A stretch of DNA of 64,000 nucleotides, from contig WLRQ01000005.1 in assembly GCA_009697815.1 (NCBI GenBank), positions 1 through 64,000 of the forward strand. The letters are read 5' to 3'. Position 1 is the stretch's first letter. Each line of letters starts with the position of its first letter. Position numbers and translations under genes: made by a program. The notes beneath the pieces were generated by a model. It was not told the origin of the DNA, made no database searches, and was given only the letters and a program-made list of their open reading frames with translations. This document shows positions 849 through 2,951 of this stretch, one piece after another. The stretch comes from Actinomycetota bacterium. Its GTDB lineage: Bacteria; Actinomycetota; Actinomycetes; S36-B12; CAIYMF01.

Positions 849-1066
849 TGAGCTCCCTCGAGCCGGTTCGGGGCTGCTTTCTCCTCGTCTGACTGGGATC
901 TTTACCAGAGTGAGAGTGCGGTGTCTCGGCGAGAAACAAGATCGATTTGTGATCTATCCCGCATCGATTCTCGCGGTGGAGCTGTCCGTTGAGCGCGCAT
1001 CCACCACCCCCACAGGAGGAGTGTCCGGATTGAGGGCGCGCCGGGCCGCGTCCCTGAGGAGGAATC

Positions 1067-1225
1067 GTGGACACCTTGGGTGTGGCGCTGGATTCACCAG
1101 CGCAGTACTGGCAAATCTGGGAATGGGTACAGGTCTCCATCCCTAATCTGATCTGGATCGTGGTCATGCTGCTGCTGTTCGTCGGCGCGCTGGTCATTCC
1201 CTTCCCGAAGAGCGCCGCCAAGTGA
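1067..1225 (+). CDS. Small single-pass membrane protein (52 aa) preceding cytochrome b
   Basis: GTG start after AGGAGGAA; VDTLGVALDSPAQYWQIWEWVQVSIPNLIWIVVMLLLFVGALVIPFPKSAAK*; stop overlaps the ATG of the cytochrome b gene (TGATG). Absent from the ORF track because of its length. Confidence 0.75.
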   Translation: MDTLGVALDSPAQYWQIWEWVQVSIPNLIWIVVMLLLFVGALVIPFPKSAAK

Positions 1226-1944
1226 TGTCCGCCGACTCGAGCGCAACAGGCACCGATTCCATGACGGTCTCTGGCTCGGTCTCCACCGCCGGCTCGATCT
1301 CGGTCATGACCGAGGACGCACCGACGACGTGGACTGGCTCACTGCGCCACAAGTGGATGCGCACGCTACCTCCGGACAAGATGCTCCCCGAGCGTCAGCC
1401 GGCCTACGTGACGTCCTGGATCTACGTCTTCGGCATGGCCACCATCGTCTCGCTGATCCTGGTGCTGGGCTCGGGCGCGATCCTCACCCTGGGCGGCGTG
1501 GAGTGGTTCCACACCTCGTCACTGGGCAGGTTCGTGAACAGCCTTCACTTCTGGAGCGTCCAACTGTTCTTCCTGTTCATGATCGTGCACCTGTGGGGCA
1601 AGTTCTGGATGGCCGCTTGGCGCGGTAAGCGGGCGATGACATGGATGACGGGCGCGGTCGCGTTCCTCGCCTCTGTCGGAACTGCCTTCACCGGTTACGT
1701 GATCACGACGAACTTCAACGCCCAGTGGATCGCATTCGAATCCAAGGACGTCATGAACGCCGTGGGCCTCGGCGCCATCTTCAATGTCGCTGATCTCGGC
1801 CAGATGATCCTGCTGCACGTATGCCTGCTCCCTGCTGGCCTCGGCCTGATCGTGATCATGCACGTACTGCTGGTGCGCAAGCACGGCGTCGTGCCACCAC
1901 TGGAGGCACTAGATCCCGACGCGCAGAAGGCACAGGTGGCGTGA
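1225..1944 (+). CDS. Cytochrome b N-terminal (b6-like) protein
   Basis: Two His pairs: LHFWSVQLFFLFMIVH (14 apart) and LHVCLLPAGLGLIVIMH (15 apart); four predicted TM helices. Confidence 0.85.
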   Translation: MSADSSATGTDSMTVSGSVSTAGSISVMTEDAPTTWTGSLRHKWMRTLPPDKMLPERQPAYVTSWIYVFGMATIVSLILVLGSGAILTLGGVEWFHTSSLGRFVNSLHFWSVQLFFLFMIVHLWGKFWMAAWRGKRAMTWMTGAVAFLASVGTAFTGYVITTNFNAQWIAFESKDVMNAVGLGAIFNVADLGQMILLHVCLLPAGLGLIVIMHVLLVRKHGVVPPLEALDPDAQKAQVA

Positions 1945-2909
1945 TGAGCACCAAGCACGAAGCCAAGGCTGATCTTGACACCCGCCCCTGGACGGGCCCG
2001 ACAAGGCACTACGACATCCTCAAGGAAGGAGCGATCGCCCTGGTGATCGTCACCGTCCTGACGGTGGGGCTCGCGGCACTGTTCAGTTCTCCCGACGATG
2101 CCCAGCTCACGTTCAAGGGATGGGCCCAGAGTTCGCCGGACACCATGTACACCGCCGCCGTCAGCGAACTCGCCGGAAGCAGCGAGTCGGCCGGATACGG
2201 CCCGCCCTACAACAACAACAGCGACGGGCTAAGCGTCGGGCCGATCGCACTTCAGAAGTGGGCGGGAGTCACCCACCCGTTCGATGCCGCTCAAGATCTG
2301 GTGATCGCGCCACTGGAGAGCCAGCAACAGCCGGCTGACGTGGCGGCGGCTCTGGCAACCTGGAAGGCCGCGACTGCCGACCAGCAGGCAGCCTGGGCCG
2401 AGGCCTACGACACCGCTCTCGCGGACGCGGAGGGCGATGCCGCCAAGGCAGCAGAGGGCGATTACGGACCCGTCCCGGCACTGGCCACGGGCCTGGTAGC
2501 GATGGGGGCATCGGGCGCCTACGACGGAGCGATCCTCAGTCGCGGCTCCTTCTTCACCACCGACTACACCAAGCAACTGTTGTTCATGGGTGACGGCGGC
2601 TACATGGAGGACAAGGCAGTCGCTGCCAACCTGGGCGGCGACACCTGGGGAATGATGAACGAGGCCGGTAGTTGGCCTGGGCAGAGTTGGCTGGCGTTCG
2701 CGTCGGTCTGGTACCAGTTGCCGATGTTCAACACCGAAGGAAATGTTCTCACCGACAACGCCGATGCGATCATCTTCTTCATCCTCGTCGTGCTTTGCTT
2801 GATCATGATCCTGGTGCCGTTCATCCCCGGGCTGCGTTCGCTGCCCCGATGGATCCCGCTTCACCGGCTCGTGTGGAAGCAGTACTACAAGGAGAACGGG
2901 CGCGCCTAG
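1944..2909 (+). CDS. Membrane protein of the cytochrome b cassette, unknown function
   Basis: Start overlaps upstream stop (GTGATG). N-terminal TM (GAIALVIVTVLTVGLAAL), long extracytoplasmic domain, C-terminal TM (AIIFFILVVLCLIMILVPFIPGL). Confidence 0.75.
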   Translation: MSTKHEAKADLDTRPWTGPTRHYDILKEGAIALVIVTVLTVGLAALFSSPDDAQLTFKGWAQSSPDTMYTAAVSELAGSSESAGYGPPYNNNSDGLSVGPIALQKWAGVTHPFDAAQDLVIAPLESQQQPADVAAALATWKAATADQQAAWAEAYDTALADAEGDAAKAAEGDYGPVPALATGLVAMGASGAYDGAILSRGSFFTTDYTKQLLFMGDGGYMEDKAVAANLGGDTWGMMNEAGSWPGQSWLAFASVWYQLPMFNTEGNVLTDNADAIIFFILVVLCLIMILVPFIPGLRSLPRWIPLHRLVWKQYYKENGRA

Positions 2910-2911
2910 AA

Positions 2912-2951
2912 ACCGACCATGCGGCCGGCGAAAGCCAGCCGCATGGTCGGT
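2912..2951 (+). terminator. Hairpin terminator after cytochrome b cassette
   Basis: accgaccatgcggc ... gccgcatggtcggt, 14-bp perfect arms directly after the stop. Confidence 0.7.

Follow-up and report, generated by a model that had tools for sequence, protein, structure and literature searches.

A conserved actinobacterial three-gene unit encoding a b6-like cytochrome b and a probable counterpart of the cytochrome b C-terminal half

Complexes of the bc type bifurcate the electrons of quinol between a Rieske protein and heme bL, and the E-F loop of their cytochrome b closes the outer quinol site. In the cytochrome b6/b6f core (PF00033, PF13631; PDB 1q90_B, 1q90_D), the N-terminal half of the protein is encoded by a separate four-helix gene, with His pairs spaced 14 and 15 and glycine pairs 14 residues apart, and the next gene encodes the following helices. 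The three-gene unit described here (the trio) has the separate four-helix gene and both spacings in common with the b6f core, and its next gene would likewise encode the following helices. It also belongs to the same superfamily as the actinobacterial QcrB of the bcc complex (NF050120) and is found in the same genomes; QcrB, however, is a one-piece protein of ~500+ aa with a PDWY/PDFY motif and a Rieske partner, QcrA.

The trio lies close to one end of the window, by which we mean the whole 64,000-nucleotide stretch of DNA that was analysed, and its features are collected in Table 1. The three ORFs are as the initial annotation had described them, namely a 52-aa transmembrane peptide, a four-helix cytochrome b and a 321-aa protein with transmembrane segments at both ends, and the translational coupling claimed for them is evident from a one-base TGATG overlap at both the gene 1/2 and the gene 2/3 junction. 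The terminator that had been placed behind the operon stands in part: a very strong hairpin does follow gene 3 (-36.7 kcal/mol, z -7.8) and is the probable end of the transcription unit, but because it has no T-run it is not listed by the consensus terminator scan. The gene 1 peptide has a transmembrane helix at residues 28-46, a basic C-terminus and an LPFP-type motif at its end; judged by charge it is oriented N-out/C-in, and no Pfam or NCBIfam family matched it above cut-off. Upstream of the trio, a 98-aa ORF (552-848) matches only positions 81-135 of the 349 in TIGR00378 and looks like the remnant of a calcium/proton exchanger gene.

Table 1. Features of the trio in the window, and predicted parts of the gene 3 protein (in residues)
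Feature	Position	Strand	Basis
Shine-Dalgarno-like AGGAGG, 5' of the 52-aa peptide	1057-1062	+	sequence
Three-gene unit (trio)	1067-2909	+	coupled ORFs
Gene 1, 52-aa single-helix peptide, GTG start	1067-1225	+	ORF, hydropathy/charge, homologues
Gene 2, 239-aa four-helix di-heme cytochrome b, b6-like, ATG start	1225-1944	+	ORF, Pfam, invariant His/Gly
Gene 3, 321-aa third subunit	1944-2909	+	ORF, topology, alignments
17-pair very stable hairpin, 3' of the operon	2912-2951	+	folding energy
Gene 3 protein, first helix	residues 29-47		
Gene 3 protein, acidic extracytoplasmic helical domain	residues ~48-235		
Gene 3 protein, NETG-PGQ-W segment	residues 239-258		
Gene 3 protein, second helix	residues 276-294		
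Gene 3 protein, basic cytoplasmic tail			

The HMM search that the initial annotation had proposed as a check places gene 2 above cut-off for both Pfam Cytochrome_B (33.0 bits, cut-off 27.2) and Cytochrom_B_N_2 (44.4 bits, cut-off 27). Its His pairs, H108/H122 and H198/H213, have the spacing of 14 and 15 that had been read as the b6 pattern, and like the helix glycines G70/G84 and G143/G157, each pair 14 apart, they are invariant in 37 sequences; together these residues give good support to a predicted core of four helices and two hemes. Gene 2 shares with cytochrome b6 both the His spacing and the split after helix D. It nonetheless scores far under the cut-offs of all curated NCBIfam cytochrome models, among them the two nearest, the b6 model PRK03735 (49.4 bits, cut-off 325) and the ExtP model NF040969 (47.5 bits, cut-off 290). 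Weak profile matches were obtained with DUF4405 and Ni_hydr_CYTB. The 37 gene 2 sequences contain no conserved Cys, and, read by eye, the position aligned with the heme-c Cys of b6 (Cys35) is Val68.

A scan of the sequence collection retrieved 306 relatives of gene 2, and the best 80 of these were kept, all or nearly all of them actinobacterial (one, L070, is labelled Acidobacteria). Gene 3 lies directly downstream of the cytochrome b in 78 of these best 80 loci, and in the remaining two just 16 and 62 bp of contig follow the cytochrome b stop; the trio's conservation across actinobacteria, a further check that had been suggested, is thereby seen. The one-helix peptide precedes the cytochrome b in 64 of the 80 loci by BLAST, several of the matches being very weak, and in eight more by its LPFP motif, while the neighbourhoods of the 80 loci hold no further conserved gene. 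Distances between the cytochrome b proteins correlate with those between the gene 3 proteins (r = 0.83), a value to which shared genome ancestry contributes, and the ORFs are intact and strongly conserved over 33 clusters. The trio is a conserved unit, far beyond chance. Systematic sampling covered the Actinomycetota, where 11 of 397 genomes (~3%) in an even sample carry it; within the window's genus it is present in 9 of 11 genomes, the window's own included. A plasmid or mobile origin was considered and rejected, P0003 being without a plasmid match. In an Acidimicrobiaceae locus (L018:3385-5950), and in a few related loci, genes that by eye are glucose-6-phosphate dehydrogenase-like and 6-phosphogluconate dehydrogenase-like lie 3' of the trio.

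The initial annotation saw no recognisable family in the third protein, and no Pfam or NCBIfam family indeed scores above cut-off with it; its topology, two natural fusions and several weak signals nevertheless suggest the C-terminal half of a cytochrome b. By hydropathy and charge, both ends of the protein lie inside and its acidic domain outside. The extracytoplasmic domain has no invariant Cys or His and so offers no evident set of ligands for heme or metal. A PEWY-type motif was sought in gene 3 and is absent, PGQ-W being invariant in its place. In the fusions, gene 3 continues the reading frame of cytochrome b, in one case into a 516-aa protein (L035, 6001-7548) and in the other into a 598-aa ORF (L094, 1468-3264, minus strand) of the single-contig, 99%-complete genome G081, and in both of them helix D is followed by gene-3 helix 1, which is the order of a one-piece cytochrome b.

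In the G081 fusion, the Pfam Cytochrom_B_N_2 match runs into gene-3 helix 1 and rises from 53.8 to 61.5 bits, a gain of 7.7, compared with 57.3 bits and a gain of 3.5 when the helix is reversed; for L035 and the window pair, the Pfam b model reaches position 153-154 of 169. A profile of cytochrome b plus gene 3, with the insert removed, aligned from end to end (127.5 to 136.2) with three cytochromes b of non-canonical type, from Deinococcus, Streptomyces and Pseudarthrobacter; PGQ-W there coincides with the position of PEWY and the second gene-3 helix with helix F, and one of 30 local shuffles scored as high. With canonical QcrB, adding gene 3 gave no rise in score, the trio aligning over the N-terminal half only. 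A Foldseek search with a model of the fusion, parts of which are of low confidence, put full cytochrome b chains at the top (E 0.005, prob 1.0), with b6-only chains behind them (E 0.1), at low TM-scores of about 0.26. Gene 3 on its own found no match in a PDB fold search and no credible one in a PDB sequence search, and its hhalign score against b6f subunit IV lay within local shuffles; a PF00032 search of its own genome at E 10 matched neither gene 3 nor QcrB and so is not informative. It is the order of the fusions, the topology and the weak profile signals that lead us to propose gene 3 as a cytochrome b C-terminal half, likely, though unproven, to be a degenerate one in which helices E and F are retained and PGQ-W replaces PEWY. 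The ~180-aa extracytoplasmic helical insert would correspond to an enlarged EF loop, for which the evidence is suggestive, not proof.

All 22 trio genomes tested with PF13631 encode a strong canonical QcrB besides the trio, and in the window's genome this QcrB (on contig C56) has a PDWY motif and a Rieske gene just upstream. The initial annotation had allowed that a genome without canonical bc1 might hold it here in rearranged form; that identity is ruled out by these genomes. Its statement that no Rieske or cytochrome c gene is adjacent also holds: none of the five Rieske matches in the window's genome is on the window's contig, no Rieske gene adjoins the trio in the best 80 loci of the 306 relatives, the three proteins contain no CxxCH motif, and no cytochrome c or f subunit is conserved nearby. 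The same genome encodes a stand-alone exported Rieske lipoprotein-like protein (G000:C31:4691-5200; L086:1231-1743), relatives of which are common across actinobacterial genomes, trio present or absent alike. Nor is the trio associated with bd oxidase, which occurs in 14 of 22 trio genomes and 14 of 20 genomes without it. One trio-bearing genome, G088, has five bd-oxidase subunit I matches (C1, C2, C8, C21), the one on C8 about 12.5 kb from the trio.

New here are DevR/DosR/OsdR-type boxes upstream of the trio operon in relatives. The pattern GGGnC-n4-GnCCC fits the OsdR consensus AGGGCCGATCGGCCCT, which according to PMC5069765 agrees with the DevR site of M. tuberculosis. Of 100 loci, 22 have such a box 180-360 bp before the cytochrome b, against an expectation of 0.95 derived from the remainder of these loci, as do 12 of the 33 clusters formed at 80% identity (mean 0.75 and maximum 4 over 500 null draws), odds that are somewhat flattering since the interval was picked after the location of the best sites was known. 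Matches concentrate between -360 and -180, with no pile-up elsewhere. In Arthrobacter (L010) and Diaminobutyricibacter (L074), the trio has as neighbours genes for universal stress proteins (USP), Pyridox_ox_2, phosphoketolase, zinc alcohol dehydrogenase, a GAF histidine kinase and a LuxR-type regulator. To judge from these motifs, the boxes would associate the complex with hypoxia or dormancy in the relatives. The window's own trio promoter has no DevR box, none is conserved in its genus, and its genome shows no excess of boxes (111 versus 154 in a reversed control); the regulatory reading therefore covers the relatives only.

The reading we prefer, and to which we give about an even chance, is that the trio's products assemble into a single membrane complex, a relative of the bc/b6f core that is split, has no Rieske protein, is menaquinol-linked and, in several lineages, DevR-type-induced. 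Helices A-D, and with them two b hemes lined up across the membrane, would come from gene 2; gene 3 would add counterparts to helices E and F, and gene 1 a one-helix accessory subunit. The E-F loop of gene 3 would have grown into a cofactor-free extracytoplasmic domain of ~180 aa, with NETG-(Y/W)PGQ-W where PEWY had been, and would take over from the PEWY loop in closing the outer side. We infer the helix E/F identity and the regulation from the evidence above; menaquinone as substrate, the direction of electron flow and the partner are suggested by analogy with the family. The likely reaction would be menaquinol-linked transmembrane electron transfer via the two hemes, the outer end of the path being gated by the gene-3 domain and the redox partner being either encoded elsewhere or small and soluble. 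Such a complex would act beside the canonical bcc complex, not in its stead, and in several lineages may be induced under hypoxia or dormancy by a DevR/DosR/OsdR-type regulator.

The failure of gene 3 alone to find a fold match, and its subunit IV profile match inside the shuffle range, speak for a different arrangement, in which gene 3 would be an unrelated docking or adaptor subunit and the whole an outward quinol dehydrogenase of ExtP-like kind or a b561-like transmembrane reductase; that b6 and ExtP are the nearest NCBIfam models, both far below cut-off, and that DUF4405 and Ni_hydr_CYTB match weakly, also fits. We find this rather unlikely, since the natural fusions follow one-piece cytochrome b order, the match to the Pfam b model runs on into the first gene-3 helix, the alignment with non-canonical cytochromes b is full-length, and neither a cytochrome c gene nor any other redox gene is a conserved neighbour. 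A complete Rieske/cytochrome b complex with its Rieske subunit encoded elsewhere, for instance by the lipoprotein gene on C31, could draw on the presence of that protein in the window's genome and the frequency of its relatives in actinobacteria. It is nonetheless improbable, because this Rieske protein is found alike in genomes that carry the trio and in those that lack it, for which reason it was rejected as a partner encoded in trans, no Rieske gene adjoins any of the 80 loci, and PEWY, the hallmark of a Rieske-type quinol site, is missing from gene 3.

The distant relationship of gene 2 to cytochrome b would also suit a rearranged or decaying piece of a canonical bc complex, a notion left with next to no probability by a second, strong QcrB in every trio genome tested, by the Rieske gene beside it in the window's genome and by ORFs that have stayed intact over 33 clusters. 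The DevR-type boxes, the dormancy-type neighbours and the accessory, patchy distribution of the gene set might point, instead of to an electron-transfer enzyme, to an assembly factor or to a sensor of redox state or oxygen that works through heme; we hold this to be a poor candidate, as both heme pairs and the packing glycines are invariant, as in a transmembrane electron path, and the trio has no kinase, output or signalling domain.

Returning to the Rieske-free membrane complex, we found no description of the trio, nor anything like it, in the open-access, open-licence full texts searched, and with QcrB present in all 22 genomes, which sets the unit apart from canonical bc, this agrees in part with the initial suggestion of an undescribed quinol-linked complex. 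Tentatively, and as a possibility we rate below an even chance, the trio may represent an undescribed class of energy-converting Rieske-free cytochrome b complexes, with an outer-loop domain replacing the Rieske/cytochrome c arm and a role in hypoxia or dormancy beside bcc. A conserved cytochrome b that keeps both hemes but has lost PEWY and its Rieske and cytochrome c partners raises the question of what such a core is able to do by itself. If the dormancy regulation predicted in several relatives is true, a respiratory component would be added to non-growing actinobacteria, an idea that is testable in Arthrobacter strains.

Compared with known systems, the trio resembles the DevR/DosR and OsdR dormancy regulons in the matching upstream palindrome and the USP/Pyridox_ox_2-type neighbours of some relatives; the window lacks the box, and among the OsdR regulon members given in the available text of PMC5069765 there is no such cytochrome b trio. 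ExtP (NF040969), the b-type cytochrome of a selenite/tellurite operon, is likewise a stand-alone b6-like cytochrome in an operon, but multiple c-type cytochromes belong to the ext cluster and none to the trio locus. Relative to the b6f complex, the trio is without the heme-c Cys, PEWY, Rieske and cytochrome f and has a large extracytoplasmic insert, and gene 3 lacks the third C-terminal helix of subunit IV. In profile comparisons, the trio pair matches best with non-canonical 'cytochrome b N-terminal domain-containing' proteins of two actinobacterial plasmids, Streptomyces pFRL4 (L101:6171-7798) and Pseudarthrobacter pA (L102:5205-6825). These belong to a second unusual cytochrome b set, in which the cytochrome b is directly preceded by a ~170-aa one-helix protein of extracytoplasmic type and metal-ATPase genes (pFRL4) or DUF2933 genes (both) lie near. 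Unlike the trio, they are one-piece proteins with a different neighbour and no EF-loop domain; like the trio, they lack PEWY, have no Rieske gene annotated in the surrounding 6-7 kb or so, and adjoin an extracytoplasmic one-helix protein.
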